A stretch of DNA of 64,000 nucleotides, from assembly GCF_943373825.1 (NCBI RefSeq), contig NZ_CALSBP010000002.1, positions 2,097,501 to 2,161,500 on the forward strand. The letters are read 5' to 3'. The translations under genes and the position numbers were made by a program. Positions 6,854-19,633 of the stretch are shown here, in pieces. Below the pieces are notes generated by a model. That model did no database searches. It worked only from the letters and a program-made list of their open reading frames with translations, and had not been told where the DNA came from. Every line of letters starts with the position of its first letter. The first letter of the stretch is position 1. The stretch comes from Aquimarina spinulae (GTDB lineage Bacteria; Bacteroidota; Bacteroidia; Flavobacteriales; Flavobacteriaceae).

Positions 6854-7090
6854 TATGTATTTTCAAAATCTGATACAAATAAATACGGTTTTACAGTAAT
6901 TGTCTTTACCCCACTATTATGGTTAGTTTAAGGGATTGTGATGTAGGAAAAATGAATAAAAAGGTAAGATCTGTAGGATTTTTAGGGGATTTTGCACCTA
7001 AAATTCTATACTATTAAATTACTAATAAACCACTGAATTATAAGGTTTACCCACATCAATCGAGAACTATTTAGCTATACCATTTTTTGA

Positions 7091-7201
7091 ATCTCGAATA
7101 TCGACGATTATACAAAATCTGTTTTTTATAAATTATTAGAGAATTGTTATGAAGATGTTAAACCAGATAAATTCATAGAATCTGCCTTAACAATAAGATA
7201 A
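7091..7201 (+). pseudogene. Possible decayed coding remnant
   Basis: In the 518-bp gap 6854-7371 one plus-strand frame is open for 36 codons after a TGA and reads as ordinary protein (includes SVFYKLLENCYEDVKPDKF) before a TAA at 7199-7201. It has no start of its own and I recognise no family. It may be the tail of a lost gene, or chance in AT-rich DNA. The rest of the gap holds the promoter region of 6853 and the terminator at 7313-7339. Confidence 0.2.
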
Positions 7202-7312
7202 AATACGGTAACAGAATATAAGATAACAACGTAAGTTTTCTTTATGCTTTTAATCTTTTAATTTGATTATTAATAATTTACAAATAATCTATTCTGAAAT
7301 AAACTAAAAAAA

Positions 7313-7339
7313 AGAAGCTTGGCGATTAGCCAAGCTTCT
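7313..7339 (-). terminator. Terminator after the 7372-11552 operon
   Basis: 11-bp perfect stem AGAAGCTTGGC / GCCAAGCTTCT with a 5-nt loop; read on the minus strand it is followed by eight T residues. It lies 33 bp downstream of the lipoprotein stop codon. Confidence 0.88.
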
Positions 7340-7371
7340 ACAATTCAAATACTTAAATATGGGATATTATA

Positions 7372-8700
7372 TTATTGACGAGTCCAATCTGATGTCCAGG
7401 TATCACTCTCTTGTAATGCTCCTGCATAGTTAGCAGCGTCAAAAAATGCTCCTAGTGTAGAAGGATCAAAATTATCTACACCATCTACCGCAGTAGTATA
7501 CGAATAAGTTCCTCTAAAACCAGTAATTTCAAAACCAGATGGTATAGCAGTACCTGCACTATTAAAAGGAGCACCAGAACCATCTACAGTAAAATTATTA
7601 AAGGTTGCAAAATCTGCGAGATCAACAGTTGCACCACCATGATCTAAATCAAATGACTTTGCATTATCGATAATAGAATTTCTAACAATTACTTCATTAT
7701 TATTAAGGTTGATCAATGTTTGGTCATCATCAACTTCAATTCCTTTTCCTGGGAAAGCTTTGATAATAGCATTGTACATCGTTACTTTGGTTCCTGCTCT
7801 AAATTCGATTCCTTTATTTTCTCCATCACCATCTTCTGCACCGATTAGCGTGATATTAGATAAGGTAGGATTAGAGAATGGTGCTGCATCTGGCGTAGAA
7901 GATAAATTATCTGCTTCGATTCCTTTATCTCCAGCTGCAGAAGTTTGCTGTGCGATCCAGAATTGTCCATTTCCAATCCATCCATCTGTCCAGTCAAAAG
8001 AATCATCCCCAGCACCAGTTACAATGGCATACTTTAAGTTTACAGTTCCGCCAAAAAACTCTATTCCGTCATCATTTCCATTAAAAGCCTGGATATATTC
8101 TAAAGTAGTTCCATTACCAACACCGTATAATGAAAGTCCGTTATATTCTGCATCGTCATTAATTTTTCCTCCTGTATATTCTAAACGTACATAACGTAAT
8201 ATTCCTGAGTTATCTGCCGGATCGGTTCCTCCATAGGTAAGATTTGCAACTTCTGTAGTTGCTGTAGTACCTCTGTTGATAGGGGCTTTACCTGCTAATA
8301 ATAATCCTCCCCAATCTCCAGGATTAGGAGTAGATTTATTAGACGTAAATACGATAGGTTGCGCTGCAGTACCTTCTGCGATAATTTTTGCTCCTTGCTC
8401 GATCGCTAAATATGAGAATACTCCTCCTACATCACCTGCGATAATTTTTGTACCTGCTTCGATCGTTAATGTAACTCCATCTACTACAGATACACCTCCT
8501 CTTAGCTCGTATACCTCACTAGATTCTAATGTAACATTTTGTGTAATCTGGCCCTCTAATATTTTGGTTCCAGAAGTGTCACCACCAGAACCTCCCTGGT
8601 TGATTGTGATATCTCCGATATTATCTTCCTGTATGGTACAAGCACTAAATAAAACTGCTGTTCCGATTACTATTCCCGTAAGTAAATTTTTAGTTTTCAT
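7372..8700 (-). CDS. Predicted surface lipoprotein with parallel beta-helix repeats, partner of Pho-controlled TonB receptor
   Basis: 442 residues. Lipoprotein signal peptide ending VLFSAC (Cys 21) followed by TIQEDNIGD, an acidic stretch suited to surface export. The body matches 2734-3951 motif by motif (IEAGTKIIAGDVGG, YLAIEQGAKI, PGDWGGLLLAGKAPIN, LTYGGTDPADNSG, NGNDDGIEFFGGTV) with an extra C-terminal segment ending DTWTSDWTRQ. Repeated short strands with Gly/Asn turns suggest a beta-helix. It starts 41 bp after the stop of receptor 8742-11552 and has no promoter-like sequence of its own, so the two form one operon that carries the 11-bp box array. I infer it binds or presents a phosphorus-containing or phosphate-linked nutrient to the receptor; the ligand is not visible in the sequence. 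Confidence 0.8.
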   Translation of the reverse strand: MKTKNLLTGIVIGTAVLFSACTIQEDNIGDITINQGGSGGDTSGTKILEGQITQNVTLESSEVYELRGGVSVVDGVTLTIEAGTKIIAGDVGGVFSYLAIEQGAKIIAEGTAAQPIVFTSNKSTPNPGDWGGLLLAGKAPINRGTTATTEVANLTYGGTDPADNSGILRYVRLEYTGGKINDDAEYNGLSLYGVGNGTTLEYIQAFNGNDDGIEFFGGTVNLKYAIVTGAGDDSFDWTDGWIGNGQFWIAQQTSAAGDKGIEADNLSSTPDAAPFSNPTLSNITLIGAEDGDGENKGIEFRAGTKVTMYNAIIKAFPGKGIEVDDDQTLINLNNNEVIVRNSIIDNAKSFDLDHGGATVDLADFATFNNFTVDGSGAPFNSAGTAIPSGFEITGFRGTYSYTTAVDGVDNFDPSTLGAFFDAANYAGALQESDTWTSDWTRQ

Positions 8701-8741
8701 TTTATATAATGATTAATTTTAGTTGTGTTTTCCGTTTATAA

Positions 8742-11552
8742 TTAAAGTTTAAAAGTAACCCCAAGACTAAAGTTGATTCCGTTATCAAATTTATAGGTGG
8801 TAAACTCCTGACCTAAGTCTTCCTGATCCTGGTATCGTTCTATAGATGGGTTTAATAAATTTTTAGCTTTAAGGCTTATTTCAACATGCTTTCCGATCTC
8901 ATCTTTGAAATTAAAGTTTAGTACTCCAAATCCTTTTTCAAAAATATCTCCTACTCCATTTCCACCAGCAGAATACACTCTATCTCCGAAAATGTTAAAA
9001 TCTAAAGTTGAAGTAATTTTATGATTACCAAATTCTTTGGCATATACAACATCTGCATTTACCAGAAAAGGAGAAGCTCCTTGTAATTGTCTTTCTACAT
9101 TAGTTGGTGCAATATTAGAACCATTAAATGTGGTAATGGTTGGGTCAATCTCTACCTTTGTATACATTATTGTAGTATTAACACCAAAGTTTAGGTTGTT
9201 CCAGATTGTTTCTTCTGTGTTAAAAAGATTACCCAGGTTCTTTCTATATTCTAATTCTGCTCCAAAGATTACAGCATTATCAGAATTGATAAATGTGTTT
9301 ACATTTGAAGCTGATGCTACATATACTTTTTCGATTGGGTTTTCGATATATTTACCAAATAATGTAGCCGCTACCAATTCACCTGTCTGCTCAGGAAAGT
9401 GTTCCCATTTGATATCTACATTATAGTTATCAGAATTATTAAGAATAGTATTTCCCAGAGTAGCTTCGGTAACATCTTCATCTAAGAAAGGTGCTATTTC
9501 TGTGAATTTTGGCAGTGTAACCGTTTTACTAGCTGCAAAACGAAGGTTTGATGTTGAGTTTAACTCATATTTCAAACTTATACTAGGGAGAATAAAAGTT
9601 TCGTCTATCTTTTGTGTTTTGAAAGGAGACGTTTCTAAGTCTTGTTGTTCTCTATAAAACACATTTTGCTCAAACAATTCTGCGCGAATACCTCCATTGA
9701 AGGTTAGTTTTTCTGTTAATGCATATTGCAAATTTGCATACCCAGCAATGGTTAATAAATCTGCCTCATAAATTCTTGTCGGATTAAGGTTTTCTAAAAC
9801 AATATATTCTCCATTAAGGAAATTAGTTTCATTTAATAATGCATCCGGATTATTAAAATCTACATTTTGATTTACAAGACTGTTAAGGTTGTAGTTTAAC
9901 TGATTAGATTCAAAATCTCTATCTTTTGATCTTCCTGCTAATCCAATCGTAAGTGCATTTTTAAAGTTATCATCTTCATCCTTTCCAAAATTAATATCAA
10001 AATCAATCTTCCCAGAATAATCATTTTCATTCAATTCCTGATAAAAACGTTGGTTGTTTGCTAAATCCGGACTTGTACGGTTTCCTAAAACAAGGTTTCC
10101 ATTTTGCAATTCTGTAAACACCAATTGACGTCTGTCGGGTATTAAGCCCTTTGCTTTATTATATGCAAATCCCCAATTTAACTGATACTTTCTTTCGCTA
10201 AATCTATGTTCTCCGGTAAGTTGTTGTGTAAACAGGTTATTTTGCTCATAGGTTCCTCTTCTTAAACGAATACCTACATCTGTATCTTCACTACTTACAC
10301 CATCTGTAAACTCTCTAAGCTCATCTTCGGTATCATTAACAAATAATGTAGTAGCAAGAATCTTATTGTTATTGTTCCATCGGTATCCAATACTTCCTAA
10401 TACTGTAGTATTCGTAAAATACTCATATCGATCTACATTCTTAAAATTTCCTATTCCAGTAATACTTTCTCCCTGAGAGTTAAAAGCAGCCTGATTACCT
10501 CCCAAAGCGGTTCTATGGTTTTGATCAAATGATGCGGTAACCAATACATCTAATTTCTGATCTTCTGCAACTGTAAAGGTTTTTCCACCGGTTATACTCA
10601 TACCTCCATCGGGAGCATTAAATCTTTTTACAGGATTAAAAGAAGTATCAAAAGGGTAGTACTCTATTTCTGTACTATTATAATTGTAATTCGGAATGTC
10701 TAAGAAAACAGGAACTCTTCGTGACCCATCGTCTAATCCCCATTCATCATATTGCCCACCATTAAGTAAGAAAAAATCATTACTAACAGCATTAGAGTTT
10801 ACTCCCGAACTAAAACCAACTTCTAAAAAACCTTTTCCGGGACGGTCTTTGGTATCAATATTTACACTTGCTCCGGCAAAATCACCATATATATCTGGAG
10901 CATACGTTTTATAAATCCCTAAATTCTCAACTATATCGGTCGGAAAAATCCCAAGATCAATAAGTTTTAACTTTGGGTTTAATGACGGAATAGGTAGTCC
11001 ATTTAAATAAGCATTGTTATAACGATCTCCTAATCCACGAACATATAGTTTATCACTCTGTCTAGAAATACCAGTTGCTTTAGTTAAACCTGTAGCAACA
11101 TCACTTACTCCTTTTTTAGAAAGTTCTTGCGCTCCTATCTTTTGCTGAATAGTCACCGCATTTTTTTGTTCTAATAAAATAGCTGCTTCAGATTCCTTTT
11201 TGGTCGTAGTTTTAATTACAACCTCATCTAATGCAGCCGCGCTTGCTGCCATTGCAGTATTAACTGTAGTGGTTTCGTTTGACTTTACGATTACATCTTT
11301 AATGTCTAAAGTTTCATACCCTACAAAACTAAACTCTAGTACATATGTCCCTGGCTCCAGATTTTCAATAGTATATAAACCATCAAAATCTGTAGTCGTT
11401 CCTTTTGTTGTTCCTTTAATTAATACATTAGCAAAAGGTAAAGGCTGATTATTAGATTCCTTGTCTAATAATGTTCCGGTAATCGAACCGGTTTCTTGCG
11501 CGAAGAGTATTCCTACAAAAAATAACGCAAAAAGTGTAACAATTTTTCTCAT
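8742..11552 (-). CDS. TonB-dependent receptor, predicted member of the Pho regulon
   Basis: 936 residues. Signal peptide 1-18 (ALFFVGILFAQ), carboxypeptidase-like domain (about 20-105; GSITGTLLDKESNNQPLPFANV, FDGLYTIENLEPGTYVLEFSFVGYE), plug domain with LYVRGLGDRYNNAYLNGLP (about 165-185), then a large barrel ending SLGVTFKL. Paralogue of 4088-6853. It heads a two-gene operon with lipoprotein 7372-8700. Its upstream region carries six in-phase 11-bp repeats (11593-11652), five of them TAACA or TGACA on this strand, ending 14 bp before the TTTG of a GTTCTTTGC element that also occurs in the porin promoter at 13945-13953. Role in phosphate or organophosphate uptake is inferred from that promoter and from the adjoining phosphate genes. 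Confidence 0.92.
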   Translation of the reverse strand: MRKIVTLFALFFVGILFAQETGSITGTLLDKESNNQPLPFANVLIKGTTKGTTTDFDGLYTIENLEPGTYVLEFSFVGYETLDIKDVIVKSNETTTVNTAMAASAAALDEVVIKTTTKKESEAAILLEQKNAVTIQQKIGAQELSKKGVSDVATGLTKATGISRQSDKLYVRGLGDRYNNAYLNGLPIPSLNPKLKLIDLGIFPTDIVENLGIYKTYAPDIYGDFAGASVNIDTKDRPGKGFLEVGFSSGVNSNAVSNDFFLLNGGQYDEWGLDDGSRRVPVFLDIPNYNYNSTEIEYYPFDTSFNPVKRFNAPDGGMSITGGKTFTVAEDQKLDVLVTASFDQNHRTALGGNQAAFNSQGESITGIGNFKNVDRYEYFTNTTVLGSIGYRWNNNNKILATTLFVNDTEDELREFTDGVSSEDTDVGIRLRRGTYEQNNLFTQQLTGEHRFSERKYQLNWGFAYNKAKGLIPDRRQLVFTELQNGNLVLGNRTSPDLANNQRFYQELNENDYSGKIDFDINFGKDEDDNFKNALTIGLAGRSKDRDFESNQLNYNLNSLVNQNVDFNNPDALLNETNFLNGEYIVLENLNPTRIYEADLLTIAGYANLQYALTEKLTFNGGIRAELFEQNVFYREQQDLETSPFKTQKIDETFILPSISLKYELNSTSNLRFAASKTVTLPKFTEIAPFLDEDVTEATLGNTILNNSDNYNVDIKWEHFPEQTGELVAATLFGKYIENPIEKVYVASASNVNTFINSDNAVIFGAELEYRKNLGNLFNTEETIWNNLNFGVNTTIMYTKVEIDPTITTFNGSNIAPTNVERQLQGASPFLVNADVVYAKEFGNHKITSTLDFNIFGDRVYSAGGNGVGDIFEKGFGVLNFNFKDEIGKHVEISLKAKNLLNPSIERYQDQEDLGQEFTTYKFDNGINFSLGVTFKL

Positions 11553-11575
11553 TTAACTTGTTCTGAAATTCCCGG

Positions 11576-11652
11576 CAAAGAACGACAGGCAGTGTTAAAT
11601 GTGTGTTATTCAAAAATTAATTATGTGTCATATTAATGTTAGAAAATTGTTA
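11576..11652 (-). promoter_or_regulatory. Predicted Pho box array and -7 element of the TonB receptor operon
   Basis: On the minus strand TAACA occurs at 11652-11648, 11641-11637, 11608-11604 and 11597-11593, TGACA at 11630-11626, and a weak TAATT at 11619-11615: six positions at exact 11-bp spacing. The last box ends 14 bp before the TTTG of GTTCTTTGC (TTTG at 11579-11576), about 25 bp before the ATG. The layout fits binding of an OmpR/PhoB-type dimer row on one DNA face. The remainder of the 383-bp gap 11553-11935 holds only the terminator at 11883-11913. Confidence 0.75.
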
Positions 11653-11882
11653 CCTCTCATTGTTTATAGAATGTTTTCTCAATATTAATCCAGTGTTAGA
11701 TCTATACATAAACTACTGTAAATAAGAAATTAACCCAGATAAAAATCTTCTTAAAAAAGATCCATTGTATTGTTAAGAAAACAAACAACAAATTAGTAAT
11801 GTAAAAAAAAATTAAACCTTTCTTAGATTAAAAAATCAAATCATAGAAGGGATATCATTCTTTTTTGAGAGTTTTGGAAAAC

Positions 11883-11913
11883 AAAAAAGACTTCCAATAT
11901 GGAAGTCTTTTTT
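11883..11913. terminator. Terminator after the MORN-like gene
   Basis: 13-bp perfect stem AAAAAAGACTTCC / GGAAGTCTTTTTT with AATAT loop. On the minus strand the stem ends in six T residues; it lies 23 bp beyond the stop of 11936-12295. Confidence 0.85.
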
Positions 11914-11935
11914 GTTTATTTTTTTGTAGTAAAAT

Positions 11936-12295
11936 CTAGTTTTTATAATTCACAACCACATTGTCTTTACCTGACCAAGTTGTTACATCAGCGATTTGAT
12001 TTTTATTATAATTTACTTCTGATAACTTATCTGCATTCCAGAAAAACCATTTCCCTGTTTTTACTCCATTATCATATTGCCCCATGGCAATTTTCTTTCC
12101 TGTAGCATCATACGATTTCCATTCTCCATGAAGCTTACCTTCTTTATTATAGAAACCTTGTTGTCTTACTGTTCCATCTTCAAAATAAAATGTACCTTTA
12201 ATCTGATCTCCTTGCTTTTCAAAAGTCGGCTTTACATCCTGAGCCATTGCGGTTGCAGAAAATAAAATGGCCATTGCTACTATTATCTTTTTCAT
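11936..12295 (-). CDS. Small secreted MORN-repeat-like protein
   Basis: 119 residues. Signal peptide 1-18 (ILFSATAMAQ). The mature part contains repeats of the YwqK/MORN type: GTVRQQGFYNKEGKLHGEW, GKKIAMGQYDNGVKTGKWFFW and a third degenerate unit (KLSEVNYNKNQI). Such proteins are common periplasmic or surface proteins in flavobacteria; no catalytic residues are expected and the function is unknown. It is transcribed divergently from the ChrA-type gene, and the plus-strand TAACA array at 12355-12393 lies between them, 60-98 bp before its start codon but pointing away from it. A role in the phosphate-starvation block is possible by position only. Confidence 0.8.
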   Translation of the reverse strand: MKKIIVAMAILFSATAMAQDVKPTFEKQGDQIKGTFYFEDGTVRQQGFYNKEGKLHGEWKSYDATGKKIAMGQYDNGVKTGKWFFWNADKLSEVNYNKNQIADVTTWSGKDNVVVNYKN

Positions 12296-12354
12296 GATTT
12301 TAAATATTTTAGATTATTTGGGATGTCGACTTATATTATAAAAGTAATATTTAT

Positions 12355-12393
12355 TTTACATTTAAACAACATTTCGGTAACATTAAATTAACA
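12355..12393 (+). promoter_or_regulatory. Predicted Pho box array between the MORN-like and ChrA-type genes
   Basis: Plus-strand hexamers TTTACA (12355), ACAACA (12366), GTAACA (12377) and TTAACA (12388) stand at exact 11-bp spacing, the same unit as at 11593-11652 and 13909-13935. No clear TTTG lies 14 bp beyond the last box; the best -7-like sequence is AACCTTTG at 12443-12450. The distance to the ChrA-type ATG (172 bp) is much longer than at the other promoters (about 35-43 bp). Confidence 0.6.
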
Positions 12394-12564
12394 TTAATTC
12401 CATAATTACCTTATTATCATTCATTTAATACATTAAAAATTGAACCTTTGTAATGTTCAAAATCATCAATCCTATCTCACTTTTGTCATCATGAACAGTA
12501 TTATATTTATACTTTTGATGACGTTAAATTATTCTGTGTCATTTCATAGATTTATTATATTTAA

Positions 12565-13695
12565 ATGAATAACAAGAAAAGACTTATTGAGGTTGCTATT
12601 GTTTTTTTTAAGCTAGGTTGTTTTGCTTTTGGTGGTCCGGCAGCACATATTGCCATGATGGAAAATGAAGTAGTTGATAAAAGGAAATGGATGGACAAAC
12701 AACATTTTCTGGATCTTATCGGAGCCACCAACTTAATTCCTGGTCCCAATTCTACCGAGATGACCATGCATTGTGGTCATGAGCGTGCCGGAACTGCTGG
12801 TCTATTTGTTGCCGGAGCTTGTTTTATTTTTCCTGCAGTAGTCATTACAGGAGCGTTGGCTTGGTTTTATACTTCTTATGGACAGTTACCCGAAGTAACT
12901 CCTTTTATTTCTGGTATCAAACCCGCTGTACTTGCTATTATTTTATCGGCAATTCTAAAATTAGGAAAAAAAGCATTAAAAAACTGGGAGCTAGGTATAA
13001 TAGGAATTTTAGTACTAATTATTAGCTTATTGGGAGTAAATGAAGTTATTGCATTGTTAAGTGCAGGGCTTTTTGGAACACTATATTTTTATTTTAAATC
13101 TAAACTAAATACCTCACCTAAATCCATTGCCCCATTCTTCATATTTAAAATTTCTACATTTACTTTTATTAAACTTTCTTCTATAAAAGTTCTTTGGACA
13201 TTTTTTAAAGTTGGTGCTATATTATATGGTAGTGGTTATGTTTTGTTTGCATATCTTGATGCAGAATTAGTTACAAAAGGCTGGTTAACCAGATCAGAAT
13301 TGATAGATGCCATTGCAGTTGGTCAATTTACACCAGGTCCTGTTTTATCTACTGCAACCTTTATTGGTTATCAATTAGCTGGATTTTGGGGAGCCATAGC
13401 GGCTACACTAGGAATCTTTCTCCCTTCTTTTCTTTTTGTATTACTTCTTAATCCATTAGTGCCCAAAATGAGAAAATCCAAAACACTTAGCTATTTTCTT
13501 GATACTGTTAATATTGCGGCGGTCGCTATCATGTTATCGGTATTGTTTGTAATGTCTTTAGATACCTTAATCGACTGGAAAGCAATAAGTATTGCTTTGG
13601 TGGGTGTTATTATGATTTTTGGGTTTAAGAAAGTAAATCCTATGTGGATTGTACTTGGAGGATCACTTTTGGGATACGTGCTAAGTCTTGTATAG
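12565..13695 (+). CDS. CHR-family (ChrA-type) anion transporter
   Basis: 376 residues, the usual length for a two-domain CHR transporter. The N-terminal half has the family signature FFKLGCFAFGGPAAHIAMM and ATNLIPGPNSTEM; the C-terminal half repeats it as FFKVGAILYGSGYVLFAYL and VGQFTPGPVLSTATFIG. About ten hydrophobic helices place it in the inner membrane. Characterised relatives expel chromate; here it sits beside phosphate genes and downstream of a TAACA array, so a broader oxyanion role is possible but speculative. Start ATG chosen because the family's N-terminal KLGCFAFGG segment follows within 15 residues. It is followed by two stem-loops (13737-13765 and 13834-13855). Confidence 0.9.
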   Translation: MNNKKRLIEVAIVFFKLGCFAFGGPAAHIAMMENEVVDKRKWMDKQHFLDLIGATNLIPGPNSTEMTMHCGHERAGTAGLFVAGACFIFPAVVITGALAWFYTSYGQLPEVTPFISGIKPAVLAIILSAILKLGKKALKNWELGIIGILVLIISLLGVNEVIALLSAGLFGTLYFYFKSKLNTSPKSIAPFFIFKISTFTFIKLSSIKVLWTFFKVGAILYGSGYVLFAYLDAELVTKGWLTRSELIDAIAVGQFTPGPVLSTATFIGYQLAGFWGAIAATLGIFLPSFLFVLLLNPLVPKMRKSKTLSYFLDTVNIAAVAIMLSVLFVMSLDTLIDWKAISIALVGVIMIFGFKKVNPMWIVLGGSLLGYVLSLV

Positions 13696-13736
13696 TGCCA
13701 CTTTTAACGATAGCTTAAAGTTTTGGTAACATAAAA

Positions 13737-13765
13737 ACTCGCCAAATAAAATATTTTTGGCGAGT
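13737..13765. terminator. Terminator after the ChrA-type gene
   Basis: 10-bp perfect outer stem ACTCGCCAAA / TTTGGCGAGT about 40 bp after the stop codon; the T-run is stronger when read on the minus strand. Confidence 0.65.
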
Positions 13766-13833
13766 CGTAAGACGACATTTGTAGTTTCAAAAAATCATAT
13801 TAGTTTTTGTCGACTTAGATTTTTGAAATACAG

Positions 13834-13860
13834 GGCTAACCGAAAACGGTTAGCCTTTTT
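13834..13860 (+). terminator. Second, orphan terminator before the porin gene
   Basis: 9-bp perfect stem GGCTAACCG / CGGTTAGCC with AAAA loop, followed by five T residues: a textbook terminator on the plus strand. No coding region lies between it and the previous stem-loop, so it either backs up the ChrA-type transcript or ends a small RNA. Confidence 0.8.
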
Positions 13861-13908
13861 CATTTCTGCATAAATACTCAAAAAAAACATTTTAATATAA
13901 TCATTATA

Positions 13909-13953
13909 AAACATTAAGTTAACATTAACTTAACATAGATACAAGTTCTTTGC
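13909..13953 (+). promoter_or_regulatory. Predicted Pho box and -7 element of the phosphate porin gene
   Basis: AAACA (13909), TAACA (13920) and TAACA (13931) at 11-bp spacing; the last box ends at 13935, 14 bp before TTTG (13949-13952) within GTTCTTTGC, the same nine bases as in the TonB receptor promoter. The start codon follows at 13978. Confidence 0.75.
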
Positions 13954-13977
13954 AAGCGACAAAAACTAGTATCGATT

Positions 13978-15177
13978 ATGAAATTAAAGAATACACTAAC
14001 AGCGTTAGTTCTATTTACGCTTTGTTTTGTAAATGCTCAGGAAACTACTGAGACTAAATTTGGAAAAGGAATCTTAAATGTTGTTGCCAAAGACAGCTCA
14101 TGGAGCATGAAATTTGCAACCAGATTTCAATTACTTTCTACTACCGGTTGGGATATTAACGATAATAATTATAGTAAACCAGAAACCAATTTTCTCGTAA
14201 GAAGAGCACGTTTAAAATTTAGCGGTTTTGCTTATAGTCCAAAAATTAAATATAAAATAGAATTGGGGGTATCTAATAGAGATATTTCTGGAGCTTCAGA
14301 ATTCACTAGCAATGCTCCACGTTATATTCTAGATGCTGTTATAAAGTGGAATTTCTATAAAAACTTTACACTTTGGGCGGGGCAAACTAAACTACCAGGC
14401 AATGTAGAACGTGTTATTTCTTCAGCAAACTTACAATTAGTAGATCGTTCTAGGTTAAATAGTCGTTTTAATATAGACCGTGATTTAGGAATACAGTTAA
14501 GACATCACTTTAAATTATCAGATAAATTTATCGTTAGAGAAGCTTTTGCAATTTCCCAGGGAGAAGGAAGAAATATTACCAGCGGGAATTTAGGTGGCCA
14601 TCAATACACAGGAAGATTAGAATTATTACCTTTTGGGAAATTTAAAAGTAAAGGAGATTATAAAGGAGGAGATCTTAAGAGAGAACAAACTCCCAAATTA
14701 ATGCTGGCGGCAACTTATGACTTTAATGCAGATGCTGTAAAAAACAGAAGTAATCAAGGGTCTTACATGCAAACCGGTACTGGTTTTTATGAAACCAATA
14801 TTTCTACCATATTTGTAGATGCTATGTTTAAGTATAAAGGCTTTTCTTTTATGGGAGAATTTGCCGATAGAGAAGCTGATGAAGCAATTGCAGTAGAAGA
14901 AGACGGGACACCAACCGGAGATATAGTTCAGGTGGGTAATGCGATAAATCTTCAAGCTGGATATTTGTTTAAAAGTAATTGGGAAATAGCAGGACGCTAT
15001 ACTAATCTTAATTATGATGCAATTGTTGGAAAAAATCTTGAAGAACAATATACCCTTGGGGTATCTAAATATGTAGCTGGTCATAACTTAAAAGTTCAAT
15101 CCGATATAAGTTATACCACTGAAGATGGTAATGGTAGTGGGTTAATGTATAGATTACAATTTGATATACATTTCTAA
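13978..15177 (+). CDS. Phosphate-selective porin (OprO/OprP family)
   Basis: 399 residues. Signal peptide 1-20 (ALVLFTLCFVNAQ). The body shows OprO/OprP-type segments: SWSMKFATRFQLLS, NFLVRRARLKFSGFAYSP, KYKIELGVSNRD, FTLWAGQTKLPGNVERVISSANLQLVDRS and a C-terminal LQFDIHF ending in Phe, as outer-membrane barrels do. The family forms trimeric channels that take up phosphate or polyphosphate, mostly under phosphate limitation. It is followed after 77 bp by the Pit-type phosphate transporter gene, each with its own predicted Pho box. Outer-membrane location and phosphate role are family knowledge backed by context. Confidence 0.92.
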   Translation: MKLKNTLTALVLFTLCFVNAQETTETKFGKGILNVVAKDSSWSMKFATRFQLLSTTGWDINDNNYSKPETNFLVRRARLKFSGFAYSPKIKYKIELGVSNRDISGASEFTSNAPRYILDAVIKWNFYKNFTLWAGQTKLPGNVERVISSANLQLVDRSRLNSRFNIDRDLGIQLRHHFKLSDKFIVREAFAISQGEGRNITSGNLGGHQYTGRLELLPFGKFKSKGDYKGGDLKREQTPKLMLAATYDFNADAVKNRSNQGSYMQTGTGFYETNISTIFVDAMFKYKGFSFMGEFADREADEAIAVEEDGTPTGDIVQVGNAINLQAGYLFKSNWEIAGRYTNLNYDAIVGKNLEEQYTLGVSKYVAGHNLKVQSDISYTTEDGNGSGLMYRLQFDIHF

Positions 15178-15193
15178 ATCACAAGCTAATACA

Positions 15194-15237
15194 TAACAGT
15201 TTGGTAACATTAAGCTGAGAATTGATTATAATATTTG
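15194..15237 (+). promoter_or_regulatory. Predicted Pho box and -7 element of the Pit-type gene
   Basis: TAACA (15194), TAACA (15205) and TGAGA (15216) at 11-bp spacing; the third box ends 14 bp before TTTG (15234-15237) of TAATATTTG. ATG follows at 15255. Confidence 0.68.
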
Positions 15238-15254
15238 CACCTTAAACAAAAAGT

Positions 15255-17642
15255 ATGGATAATATTTATTTATTAATGGTAGTCGCGCTAGCAATATTAG
15301 CGGTTGCCGACCTTATTGTGGGAGTTAGTAATGATGCTGTTAACTTCTTAAATTCTGCTATTGGTTCTAAAGCAGTTTCTTTTAGAACAATAATGATTGT
15401 TGCCAGTATTGGTATTGCAGCTGGAGCCGTTTTCTCTAGTGGATTAATGGAAGTAGCAAGGAAAGGAATTTTTAATCCTGGTGAATTCTATTTTGATGAA
15501 ATCATGATCATTTTTATGGCAGTTATGATTACCGACATTCTCCTTCTCGACTTTTTTAATACACTGGGGATGCCAACTTCGACAACGGTATCTATTGTAT
15601 TTAATCTTTTGGGAGCAGCAGTATCTATTGCACTAATTAAAATTGGAGCAGATCAAGGGTTAGCTTTTTCTGATTTAGGAAATTACATTAACACCAAGAC
15701 AGCAACAAAAATTATTAGTGGTATTTTGCTCTCGGTAGTGATAGCATTCTCGGTAGGTGCTATTGTACAATTTATAACTCGTTTATTACTATCCTATAAT
15801 TTTGAAAAGAAAGCTAAATGGGTTGGTGCTTTATTCGGAGGAATTGCATTAACTGCATTATTGTATTTCATTTTCATGAAAGGAATTAAAGGAACCAATT
15901 ACGCCAAAGCTATAGTTGATATTCTATACAATGGCGGTCCTGAAGGGCTATTAGATTGGGCTAATAATTATTTTGGTAGTACGTATGAAAATGTAAAGGA
16001 ACTGGCAAAAGCTCAGAAAAACCTTTTCAAGATAGATGGTGATGCAGGAACAATCAAAATGACCTTAAGAGGATATTTAGAAACCTATGTGTTTCAGATC
16101 GTAGCTGCCGGTTTTGTATTGTGGTCAGTATTATCATATATACTTATTAATTTCTTTAAAGTAAATATTTATAAGCTTATTATTATTGTAGGTACATTTG
16201 GATTAGCATTAGCTTTTTCGGGTAATGATTTGGTAAACTTTATTGGTGTACCTATAGCGGGCTGGCAATCTTATGAAGCCTGGGTAGCTTCTGGTATTCC
16301 TGCTACTGAGTTTTCTATGGATGTTTTAGCCAAAAAAGTAGACACTCCTACCTTACTACTATTTGGTTCAGGAATAATAATGGTACTTACATTATGGTTT
16401 TCAAAAAAAGCTCGATATGTTGCCGATACCGAAATTAACCTTTCTAGAGAAGGAGAAGCTAAAGAACGTTTTAAACCAAATTTTCTATCAAGAGGTGTTG
16501 TAAGAAGTACTGTTTTGATATCTCAAGGACTTGGTGCAATTACACCAAAACCTGCAATGGAGTTTATAGAAAACAGATTTTCTAAACCTGTTATAGACTT
16601 ACCAAAGAACAAGACTTATGAAATGCCTGCATTTGATATGGTAAGAGCTGCAGTAAACCTTATGGTTGCCGGAGTCTTAATTTCTATTGCAACTTCTATG
16701 GGATTACCACTTTCTACAACCTATGTTACTTTTATGGTAGCAATGGGTACCTCATTAGCAGATAGAGCGTGGGGAACAGAGAGTGCAGTATATCGTGTAG
16801 CAGGAGTACTTAACGTAATTGGCGGATGGTTCTTTACTGCTATAAGCGCATTCGTTGCAGCTGCAACAGTAGCGTTTTTGATTAATCTTGGTGGCCCTAT
16901 AATGGTTGCAGTCTTATTACTTATTGCTGTATTACTTTTGGCAAGAAATACCATTAATTATAGAAAGAGAGTTAAAGCAGAGAAAGCAGAAGATAGTCTT
17001 AAAAATTCTGAGAGTAGCTCTGTTCAAGGAGTTATCGAAGAAAGTGCAGATAATATCAAATCCTTTGTAAATAGAGGAAATAAAATTTACACAAGCACGA
17101 TAGAAAGCCTTGTGAAATATGATTTAATCGCCTTAAAGAAAAGTAAAAAAGGAATTGCTAAACTAGATGAAGAAGTTGAAGAACTAAGAGATAATATTTT
17201 CTACTTTATCAAGAATCTGGATGAGTCTAGTGTAGGTGCCAGTAATTTTTATATTAATATTTTAGGGTATCTGCAAGATATGTCTCAGTCTTTAGAATAT
17301 ATCACCAAAGCAAGTCACAAGCATGTAAACAACAATCATAAAAAACTTCGATTTAATCAGATTAAAGATTTAAAAGAAATCGAAGAACAATTAAATGAGT
17401 TGTTCAGGCAAATCAAAAAAGCATTTAGTGATAGAGATTTTGATCATATTGATACCATTATTAATGAAAAACAAGAACTCTTTAATAAGGTAAATCAAAA
17501 AATAGATAAACAAGTTGCCAGAACGAGAACTGAAGAAAATAGTCCAAAAAACACCACCTTGTATTTTGGATTACTATTAGAAACCAAAGATCTTATTACC
17601 GCAACAATGAATTTGTTAGAGACCTATAGAGAACACAAATAG
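15255..17642 (+). CDS. Pit-family inorganic phosphate transporter fused to a PhoU-like domain
   Basis: 795 residues. Residues about 1-570 are a PHO4/Pit permease with duplicated signature segments: VGVSNDAVNFLNSAIGSKAVS with MPTSTTVSIVFNLLGAAVS in the first half, FSGNDLVNFIGVPIAGWQS with MGLPLSTTYVTFMVAMGTSLADRAW in the second. After about residue 580 the protein changes to a hydrophilic helical domain of about 200 residues (KSFVNRGNKIYTSTIESLVKY ... TATMNLLETYREHK) resembling PhoU/DUF47, which elsewhere is a separate protein regulating phosphate uptake. The permease should import phosphate with H+ or Na+ at the inner membrane, the tail acting as built-in control. It lies between the porin and phoB and carries its own Pho-type box. 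Confidence 0.93.
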   Translation: MDNIYLLMVVALAILAVADLIVGVSNDAVNFLNSAIGSKAVSFRTIMIVASIGIAAGAVFSSGLMEVARKGIFNPGEFYFDEIMIIFMAVMITDILLLDFFNTLGMPTSTTVSIVFNLLGAAVSIALIKIGADQGLAFSDLGNYINTKTATKIISGILLSVVIAFSVGAIVQFITRLLLSYNFEKKAKWVGALFGGIALTALLYFIFMKGIKGTNYAKAIVDILYNGGPEGLLDWANNYFGSTYENVKELAKAQKNLFKIDGDAGTIKMTLRGYLETYVFQIVAAGFVLWSVLSYILINFFKVNIYKLIIIVGTFGLALAFSGNDLVNFIGVPIAGWQSYEAWVASGIPATEFSMDVLAKKVDTPTLLLFGSGIIMVLTLWFSKKARYVADTEINLSREGEAKERFKPNFLSRGVVRSTVLISQGLGAITPKPAMEFIENRFSKPVIDLPKNKTYEMPAFDMVRAAVNLMVAGVLISIATSMGLPLSTTYVTFMVAMGTSLADRAWGTESAVYRVAGVLNVIGGWFFTAISAFVAAATVAFLINLGGPIMVAVLLLIAVLLLARNTINYRKRVKAEKAEDSLKNSESSSVQGVIEESADNIKSFVNRGNKIYTSTIESLVKYDLIALKKSKKGIAKLDEEVEELRDNIFYFIKNLDESSVGASNFYINILGYLQDMSQSLEYITKASHKHVNNNHKKLRFNQIKDLKEIEEQLNELFRQIKKAFSDRDFDHIDTIINEKQELFNKVNQKIDKQVARTRTEENSPKNTTLYFGLLLETKDLITATMNLLETYREHK

Positions 17643-17670
17643 TAGATCTAACTACTAATAAAAATTGCAA

Positions 17671-17705
17671 AAAAAGGCTAAATATATTGATGTTTAGCCT
17701 TTTTT
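17671..17705. terminator. Terminator after the Pit-type gene
   Basis: Stem AAAAAGGCTAAA / TTTAGCCTTTTT with a roughly 10-nt loop, ending in T residues, about 30 bp after the stop codon. Confidence 0.85.
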
Positions 17706-17759
17706 ATTTTTAACTTTCACTATACGAATTTGGCACAAAAAACCATCACGTTAAGCAAA

Positions 17760-17797
17760 TGTTATCTACTCACACAACTAATGTTAGCTTATCGTTA
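17760..17797 (-). promoter_or_regulatory. Inverted Pho-type boxes upstream of phoB
   Basis: Minus-strand TAACG (17797-17793), TAACA (17786-17782) and TAACA (17764-17760), i.e. 11- and 22-bp spacing in the phase seen at the other arrays, but pointing away from phoB. The proximal box is 74 bp before the phoB ATG. No -7 element fits leftward transcription. Autoregulation of the two-component operon is the likely role, by inference. Confidence 0.5.
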
Positions 17798-17870
17798 CCA
17801 AATCTATATAAATATGTATACTTCGTATTAAGTGGTATATTTATCCAATGTTATGTAATGCTATACTATA

Positions 17871-18554
17871 ATGAACAAAAAAGATATTTCGATACTATTA
17901 GTTGATGATGAACCCGATATTTTAGAAATTGTCGGGTATAACCTTACTGCAGAAGGATATACAGTAATAACTGCAGAAAATGGTGTTGAAGCTGTAAAAG
18001 CTGCAAAAAAGAAAAAACCACATCTAATTATTCTAGATGTAATGATGCCAGAGATGGATGGTATAGAAGCCTGTGAGCATATAAGAAAGTTACCAGACTT
18101 ACAAAATACAATCATTACCTTCCTTACAGCACGTGGTGAAGACTATTCTCAAGTTGCCGGATTTGATGCCGGTGCAGATGATTATATTACAAAACCCATT
18201 CGTCCAAAAGTTTTAGTAAGTAAAGTAAAAGCCCTATTGAGAAGACTTAAAGAAGAAGAGTCTTCAGACAATGTTGTTAAAATAGGAAATTTGGTCATTA
18301 ACAGAGATGAATACAAAATTGTTAAAGACAAAAAAGAAATTGTATTACCAAGAAAAGAATTCGAATTACTATCTTTATTGGCCTCTAAGCCTGGCAAAGT
18401 TTTTAAGCGAGAAGATATTCTTGATAAGGTTTGGGGTAATGAGGTCATTGTAGGCGGTCGTACAATTGATGTGCACATTAGAAAATTAAGAGAGAAAATC
18501 GGCGATAATAGTTTTAAAACTATTAAAGGAGTAGGATATAAGTTTGTAGTTTAA
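17871..18554 (+). CDS. phoB: PhoB-like OmpR-family response regulator
   Basis: 227 residues. Receiver domain 1-125 with the acidic pocket DDE (12-14), phosphoacceptor Asp56 (LIILDVMMPEMDG) and Lys in DDYITKPIRP; C-terminal winged helix about 135-227 with REDILDKVWGNEV, GGRTIDVHIRKLREKIG and FKTIKGVGYKF, typical of OmpR/PhoB DNA recognition. Flavobacterial PhoB-type regulators have this arrangement. The stop codon overlaps the kinase start by one base (TAATG), so the two are cotranslated. Position next to porin and Pit genes with matching promoter boxes supports phosphate starvation control; the name PhoB rests on context more than on unique residues. Confidence 0.88.
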   Translation: MNKKDISILLVDDEPDILEIVGYNLTAEGYTVITAENGVEAVKAAKKKKPHLIILDVMMPEMDGIEACEHIRKLPDLQNTIITFLTARGEDYSQVAGFDAGADDYITKPIRPKVLVSKVKALLRRLKEEESSDNVVKIGNLVINRDEYKIVKDKKEIVLPRKEFELLSLLASKPGKVFKREDILDKVWGNEVIVGGRTIDVHIRKLREKIGDNSFKTIKGVGYKFVV

Positions 18555-19633
18555 TGGCAGAAAACTTTAAAAAGTCGTATAGATTTGCATATCTATCTTC
18601 TTTATATATAACCATATTATTAACGCTCGCATTGAGCGTTTTTTTATACATTCAATCACTGTTTAATCCATTTATTATATTTGGTTTTATAGTGACTTGT
18701 TATCTGATTTGTTTTCTCATTATTCAATATAGAGTAGAAAAATTTATTTATCGTAGAGTACGAAAAATCTATGATGATATCGAAATGCTGGAAGTAGATT
18801 CTATCGGAGAAGGCCCCGTGACTACAGATATGAGAACTCTTATTAAAGAAGTTGAAAAGTTTGCTCAACAAAGAAAAACAGAGATCGAAACTCTAAAAAT
18901 CAGAGAAGCCTATCGTAAAGAATTTATGGGTAACGTTTCTCATGAGTTAAAAACACCCCTGTTTACTGTTCAGGGATATATTCTTACCCTCCTGGATGGA
19001 GCAATGGATGATCCCGAAATTCTTGACAAATATTTAAATCGAGCAAACAAAGGAGTTGAACGCTTGATTTATATTGTAAATGATCTGGATATGATTACCA
19101 AACTTGAAGTAGGTGATCTTAATCTTAATTATACCAATTTTGATATTGTAGAATTAGTACAAAGTGTGTTTGATTTATATGAAATGAAAGCTGCAAAAAA
19201 GAATATTGCTCTTACGTTTGATATGAATTATGAAGAACCTGTACTTGTACATGCCGATAAAGAGCGCATACAACAAGTACTTTCTAATTTGATTGTAAAC
19301 TCAATAAAATACGGAAAAGAAGATGGTACTACAGAAGTAAGCATCGAAGATTTAATCCGAAATAAAACCATTGTTAGAATTACAGATAATGGTGAAGGAA
19401 TTGCACAAGCCCATATTCCACGATTGTTTGAGCGTTTTTATCGCGTAGACAAAAGTGGATCGCGTAAAGAAGGTGGGTCCGGTCTTGGGCTAGCTATTGT
19501 AAAACACATTATCGAGGCACATCATGAGCGCATTTATGTAGAAAGCGATTATCGAGTGGGAAGTGAATTTTCATTTACTATGGAAAAAGTGAAAAAGTTC
19601 CCTATAGTCAATATCAGTACTAAAACTACTTAG
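18554..19633 (+). CDS. phoR: PhoR-like sensor histidine kinase
   Basis: 359 residues. Two membrane helices (about 13-33 and 39-58) separated by only a few residues, so there is essentially no periplasmic sensor domain; a linker follows, then HisKA with NVSHELKTPLFTVQGY (phosphorylated His130), an N box VLSNLIVNSIKYGKEDG, G1 DNGEGIAQ, F box FERFYRVDKSGSR and G2 GGSGLGLAIVKHI. Such short-loop kinases sense through other membrane partners, which fits PhoR of the Pst/PhoU type. It pairs with the response regulator just upstream (1-bp overlap). The last 63 bp overlap the convergent glycosyltransferase gene. Confidence 0.9.
   Translation: MAENFKKSYRFAYLSSLYITILLTLALSVFLYIQSLFNPFIIFGFIVTCYLICFLIIQYRVEKFIYRRVRKIYDDIEMLEVDSIGEGPVTTDMRTLIKEVEKFAQQRKTEIETLKIREAYRKEFMGNVSHELKTPLFTVQGYILTLLDGAMDDPEILDKYLNRANKGVERLIYIVNDLDMITKLEVGDLNLNYTNFDIVELVQSVFDLYEMKAAKKNIALTFDMNYEEPVLVHADKERIQQVLSNLIVNSIKYGKEDGTTEVSIEDLIRNKTIVRITDNGEGIAQAHIPRLFERFYRVDKSGSRKEGGSGLGLAIVKHIIEAHHERIYVESDYRVGSEFSFTMEKVKKFPIVNISTKTT

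Follow-up and report, generated by a model that had tools for sequence, protein, structure and literature searches.

Control by phosphate is a textbook case of gene regulation in the Proteobacteria and in Bacillus. In Escherichia coli the Pho box is located near the -10 element, and in Bacillus subtilis the PhoP box is composed of TT(A/T)ACA-like repeats spaced by about 11 bp, which are reversed at some promoters. This report deals with a stretch of 64,000 nucleotides (hereafter the window) representing about 1% of the 6.24-Mb, three-contig genome of Aquimarina spinulae, in which a phosphate cluster spanning 7.4–19.6 kb contains arrays of TAACA boxes upstream of genes for a TonB-dependent receptor, a small protein resembling MORN-domain proteins (the MORN gene), a porin, a Pit-type phosphate transporter and a PhoB-like response regulator. 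Judged from the DNA, these arrays are very probably Pho boxes, that is, operators of the PhoB/PhoP family built of 11-bp direct repeats with the core TAACA(T). Their core and period are nearly equal to those of the B. subtilis PhoP box, whereas the phylum and the type of promoter differ.

The Pho box of E. coli consists of 11-nt direct repeats with seven conserved and four less conserved positions that are bound in tandem, head to tail, and its core is CTGTCAT instead of TAACA(T) (PMC4415409). The arrays described here also depart from the E. coli arrangement in the Bacteroidota-type -7 element with TTTG, in the number of boxes (two to six) and in the occurrence of reversed arrays on the same grid. 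Among flavobacteria, a regulator likewise of the PhoB/PhoP type, PhoP of Riemerella anatipestifer, which is compared here by its motif and not as an orthologue, is reported to be raised under phosphate starvation and to bind upstream of its own operon; its motif, derived by DNA affinity purification sequencing (DAP-seq), has the core TTTAACA and was likened to that of ArcA in a paper the main text of which contains neither "pst" nor "direct repeat" and which, in the passages covered, does not propose the motif as a phosphate operator (PMC9603813). A preliminary description of the window, which knew of no published consensus for this class, was nearly right in this respect. In Flavobacterium johnsoniae the cluster Fjoh_0541-0549 is alike in gene content (PhoB, PhoR, OprP, TonB receptor and lipoprotein) and several of its members respond to inorganic phosphate (Pi), with phoB, the TonB receptor and the lipoprotein up at low phosphate by fold changes of 3.06, 8.02 and 9.91, respectively; the main text of that study has no word beginning with "motif" or "promoter" (PMC8115612). 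In Bacteroides fragilis, which belongs to this phylum too, PhoB binds the pst promoter, and its mutant shows reduced levels of pst and of a phosphate/sulphate permease; the shift was performed with a 512-bp fragment and the passages covered do not give a box sequence (PMC3547664). In marine bacteria, some of them perhaps flavobacterial, computed Pho boxes have been marked at plcP clusters (PMC4796936). A defined Pho box for Bacteroidota was not found in searches of the open-licence literature, and the published data on the phosphate response in other species are mixed.

The most extensive array precedes the TonB receptor gene (8742–11552, minus strand; N-terminal domain carboxypeptidase-like by domain search) and comprises six positions at 11-bp intervals (11593–11652, minus strand; boxes at 11652, 11641, 11630, 11619, 11608 and 11597) with scores of 5, 5, 4, 3, 5 and 5 out of 5 against TAACA. 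Three boxes at 13909, 13920 and 13931 (13909–13935, plus strand; scores 4, 5, 5) precede the porin gene (13978–15177, plus strand; OprP/OprO-type, Porin_O_P), and two exact boxes plus a decayed third (15194–15220, plus strand; 15194, 15205 and 15216 scoring 5, 5 and 3) precede the Pit gene (15255–17642, plus strand; PHO4). The preliminary description had read six, three and three positions at exactly 11 bp, which stands for the TonB and porin arrays and is one box too many for Pit, where the third position, TGAGA, is a poor box. It had also placed the last box at a fixed distance from TTTG, the presumed -7 element; the distance is indeed the same in the three promoters, measured from the last box position, and amounts to 13 bases rather than 14, the last good Pit box lying 24 bases ahead of TTTG. 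This tetranucleotide starts at 11579 (minus strand), 13949 and 15234. In the first two cases it belongs to the presumed -7 region GTTCTTTGC (11583–11575 on the minus strand and 13945–13953 on the plus strand), nine bases that are common to the TonB and porin promoters as first noticed and have one further copy in the window (59744, minus strand), and in the third to the presumed -7 region TTTGC (15234–15238, plus strand).

Four arrays can be added to those listed previously. The MORN gene (11936–12295, minus strand; 119 residues, a single MORN_2 match of 28.5 bits against a cut-off of 29.6) has upstream of it four boxes, TTACA, CAACA, TAACA and TAACA, which are reversed relative to the gene (12356–12393, plus strand); in its presumed -7 element, TACTTTTA (12339–12346, minus strand), TTTA lies 13 bases past the last reversed box as judged by eye. 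The gene of the PhoB-like regulator (17871–18554, plus strand) is also preceded by a reversed array (17749–17797, minus strand) with TAACG at 17797–17793, TAACA at 17786–17782 and 17764–17760 and TAACG at 17753–17749, that is, at phases 0, 11, 33 and 44, and the presumed -7 element TATATTTA (17836–17843, plus strand) is found 42 bases from the last box, as in the sequence logo of relatives (by eye). The other two are a second TonB array of four boxes (11661–11698, minus strand), the phase of which is 2 bp off that of the first, and a weaker one (7134–7160, minus strand; scores 5, 5, 4) located 280 bp ahead of another TonB receptor gene and, by eye, devoid of TTTG at 13 or 24 bases.

The idea that such arrays are phased AT-rich DNA which bends or aids RNA polymerase, or arise by chance in AT-rich intergenic DNA, draws on their AT-rich composition and on a phase near the helical repeat. 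It is also favored by a genome-wide count of the loose triple pattern: with up to two mismatches the genome of A. spinulae contains 67, against 62 for the reversed control, thus no enrichment. Within the window, eight triples of TAACA boxes (at least 13 of 15 matches, overlapping triples included) occur at period 11, all of them inside 7134–15220, and 0–3 at other periods from 6 to 22; dinucleotide shuffles gave on average 0.10 triples for the region 6901–17900 (maximum 2, 300 shuffles) and 0.04 for six intergenic regions (maximum 2, 500 shuffles), and four of the nine genome-wide matches with one mismatch fall within the window. In the logo of the relatives' Pit boxes no base carries more information than the C of TAACA, which speaks against a mere AT-rich signal. 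Taken together, the controls on period, strand, shuffled sequence and other upstream regions, along with the grid described below, exclude chance, and this explanation as a whole is given hardly any credence.

Conservation was examined within the family to which A. spinulae belongs, each genus being represented by a single Pit locus (80 in all). Several of the motif thresholds were picked after the sequences had been inspected, including the pair test (two boxes with nine of ten matches at a set distance), which was devised on inspection of the Pit promoters; a three-box TTAACA test had given almost no matches there because most of these promoters retain two boxes of the ATAACA/GTAACA type. 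Excluding one truncated locus, 59 of 79 Pit promoters contain a pair at period 11, while other periods between 6 and 30 yield 1–28 and the controls 1 (reverse strand), 9 (reversed sequences) and a mean of 3.1 with a maximum of 10 (100 shuffles). The second box lies 24 bases from TTTG in 48 of the 59 pair-bearing promoters, equivalent to 13 bases plus one empty repeat. With 40 additional genomes, and leaving aside loci that had been retrieved with the composite pattern (see below), pairs are found in 83 of 119 Pit promoters (4–37 at other periods). One locus that lacked an N-terminal Pit hit had also been dropped. Porin promoters behave similarly (34/42 at period 11; 0–2 at other periods except for 17 at period 22), with TTTG at a distance of 13 bases in 28 and of 24 bases in three. 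Reversed pairs at period 11 occur in 46 of 50 MORN promoters (2–29 at other periods, with 46 at period 22) and in 25 of 29 phoB promoters, the A. spinulae locus included (0–17 at other periods). Pairs are present in five of the seven TonB receptor promoters of relatives' loci. Upstream regions of other genes from the same loci served as controls and gave at period 11 nine forward and 11 reverse matches among 178, compared with 2–5 forward and 0–6 reverse at periods 9, 10, 12 and 13. By eye, two of the nine forward matches resemble Na/Pi cotransporters and three resemble porins.

The position of the boxes relative to the promoter was evaluated with exact boxes only, taking their distance to the TTTG of the -7 element modulo 11. 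Residue 2 accounts for 95 of 110 Pit boxes (TTTGC anchor in 76 of 119 promoters), 34 of 35 porin boxes (anchor in 35 of 42) and 85 of 90 reversed MORN boxes (anchor in 41 of 50), hence the boxes keep a fixed phase to the promoter and shift only by whole repeats, and forward arrays and reversed MORN arrays use one common register. A logo of the MORN promoters, aligned by design on TAnnTTTG, shows by eye that TGTTG, the third reversed box, covers the site of a -33 TTG. Two attributes of a Pho box, 11-bp direct repeats and a fixed position in the core promoter (13 or 13+11 bases to the presumed -7 element), are therefore present; what the sequences themselves show is the firm part of the proposal, namely the phasing, its conservation within the family at Pit, porin, MORN and phoB, and box positions that are tied to the -7 element.

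Pattern scans indicate which genes the boxes precede. A composite of two exact boxes, 24 bases and TTTG, built from the 79 Pit promoters, has 41 sites in 149 family genomes against one for the reversed control, and all 41 precede Pit (29 by tblastn, one by eye and 11 by the coordinates of PHO4 matches). Because the composite derives from those promoters, independent evidence comes from just 13 of these 41 genomes. The 13-base composite gives 14 sites in the family genomes, namely the porins of seven relatives, the porin and the TonB receptor of A. spinulae and five others, compared with six for the reversed control, and a looser pattern of three boxes, one mismatch allowed, has matches in eight of the 149 genomes (control, one). 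The exact three-box pattern TTAACATT, searched in the whole genome collection, occurs at 66 loci in several phyla. A downstream open reading frame (ORF) was available at 50 of the 66 loci, and 50 of 66 control ORFs were aligned. Half of the next genes (25/50, assuming that no protein was counted twice) encode proteins with domains characteristic of phosphate uptake: PBP_like_2 (nine), PHO4 (five), BPD_transp_1 (five, read by eye as Pst permeases), Na_Pi (three), Porin_O_P (two) and DUF47 (one). Among the 50 control ORFs, PBP_like_2, PHO4, Na_Pi and Porin_O_P are missing among the 25 listed families (of 99 in total), which leaves each with at most one member there; PhoU (three) and BPD_transp_1 (four) do appear, as neighbors. 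In Sporomusa and in Ktedonobacter-type genomes the exact three-box pattern is also seen upstream of pstS or Na/Pi genes, and the box thus seems to be common to other phyla too.

PstS provides a further view of the same sites. It is encoded in 12 of the 149 family genomes, not including that of A. spinulae, and among genomes with a regulator at least 70% identical the Pit pair is retained in two of seven with PstS vs. 76 of 92 others (Fisher p 0.004). Period-11 pairs occur in four of ten readable pstS upstream regions (0–1 at the remaining periods between 8 and 15), a count from which three of 13 pstS loci were excluded; one of these pairs is by eye 13 bases from TTTG, and three pstS genes start within 20 bases after a porin-like ORF. 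This pattern fits a site attached to the leading phosphate-uptake gene.

The best candidate for the ligand of the boxes is the regulator encoded next to them at 17871–18554, which outscores every other protein of its genome with the Bacteroidota PhoB model (211.7 bits vs. 188.6 for the next) and is linked to a PhoR-like histidine kinase (18554–19633, plus strand). One close orthologue (E ≤ 1e-70) is found in each of 141 of the 149 genomes; across 140 relatives identity ranges from 56 to 89%, and in 104 of them it is at least 78% (78–89%). The stretch RTIDVHIRKLREK is identical in 30 of 30 loci, that of A. spinulae included. This degree of conservation is unusual for a nutrient regulator, which may have a broader role. 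It is one of the reasons to consider that the arrays could be operators of another regulator of the OmpR family, or that the one encoded here responds mainly to some other signal than phosphate, as a global, ArcA-like or envelope regulator would; phosphate genes would then be just a part of the targets. Direct repeats at 11 bp are general in the OmpR/PhoB family, and at least four further full-length OmpR-type regulators are encoded in the genome. Repeats of this period are described for PhoB (PMC4415409), the published flavobacterial motif deemed ArcA-like has peaks upstream of 764 genes (PMC9603813), and in the flavobacterium with the TTTAACA motif, the regulator of which is only a putative orthologue, pstS is 8-fold higher in a phoPR mutant (PMC5399024). 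Against these arguments, box composites in the family stand almost exclusively before Pit and porin, the regulator sits in the cluster with an array of its own, and box retention drops as the regulator diverges. Moreover, when four of the five regulators were parsed only that of the window scored 9 upstream at period 11, a score it also reaches at period 10. An assignment of the boxes to a different regulator or to a different main signal is accordingly regarded as unlikely.

Several observations nevertheless weigh against the Pho box interpretation, the 8-fold rise of pstS just mentioned being one of them. OprP of F. johnsoniae is not Pi-induced (PMC8115612). The regulator scores 217 bits with TIGR02154 and 212.3 bits with NF053854, its two best families and curated PhoB equivalogs with cut-offs of 296.2 and 270, respectively, and for this reason is called PhoB-like. 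The phoB boxes are off the residue-2 grid, with residues 9 and 0 as the main ones (21/55 and 15/55). The parallel loss of boxes and regulator is based on counts that ignore descent (Pit pairs are retained in 74 of 91 genomes with a regulator at least 78% identical, in four of eight at 70–77%, in four of 14 at 56–69% and in one of six, itself 82% complete, where the regulator was not found). A close Pit is present in seven of 119 genomes of the class, A. spinulae included, and outside the family only one of six Pit promoters has a period-11 pair (by eye). Allowing at most one mismatch, the 13-base composite has 15 matches in the A. spinulae genome vs. 10 in the control and revealed no further clear members, its only matches at phosphate genes being the TonB and porin sites of the window. 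Finally, the enrichment before phosphate genes of relatives that the preliminary description had anticipated is borne out for Pit, the porin, a few pstS genes and the exact scan of all genomes, and thus for phosphate-uptake genes in many genomes, and fails for Na/Pi cotransporters (pairs at two of 21, not counting eight loci in which no ORF was recognised and one too close to an edge). The part that holds lends support to the earlier suggestion of a putative flavobacterial Pho box. Four of the five triple-box matches outside the window were examined as candidates for a wider regulon, and none is at a phosphate gene.

A mechanism can be proposed on these grounds. We infer that the regulator binds the boxes, that phosphate would be the signal and that reversed arrays would act with a different sign. 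Phosphorylated PhoB, the product of 17871–18554, would occupy each box with a single subunit, the subunits lining up head to tail along the same face of the helix. The forward arrays (TonB, porin and Pit), which point at the gene, occupy the place of the -33 element and leave 13 or 13+11 bases up to TTTG, would bring the nearest subunit into contact with the sigma factor, so that the gene would be switched on at low phosphate. The reversed phoB array would probably mediate autoregulation. At the MORN promoter, the reversed box overlapping the -33 element of an otherwise good promoter probably causes repression or modulation, the weakest step of the scheme. A more ambitious version, in which flavobacterial PhoB reads a single 11-bp grid anchored at -7, activates uptake genes from forward boxes and represses MORN from reversed ones, with direction alone setting the sign, is conceivable and rather doubtful.

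The cluster contains additional genes. A predicted lipoprotein of 442 residues (7372–8700, minus strand) gave no Pfam or NCBIfam matches in the family search; it rarely has an array of its own (pairs upstream in two of 17), as expected if it is located downstream of the TonB receptor gene in one operon. The genes for the TonB receptor, the 442-residue protein, MORN, porin and Pit co-occur in the Pit loci of relatives, although not in all genomes. A ChrA-type transporter is encoded between the MORN gene and the porin (12565–13695), and six of the 80 loci from relatives have such a transporter close to Pit as well. Reversed period-11 pairs lie upstream of dGTPase-like genes near Pit loci, which account for four of the 11 reverse control matches, and one more dGTPase-like gene follows a forward 13-base composite.

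A sharp family-wide consensus at a fixed distance from the -7 element would predict phosphate regulons across the phylum and would offer a clean case of activation at the unusual promoters of Bacteroidota. It also suggests that the published "ArcA-like" motif might then be reread as a Pho box.

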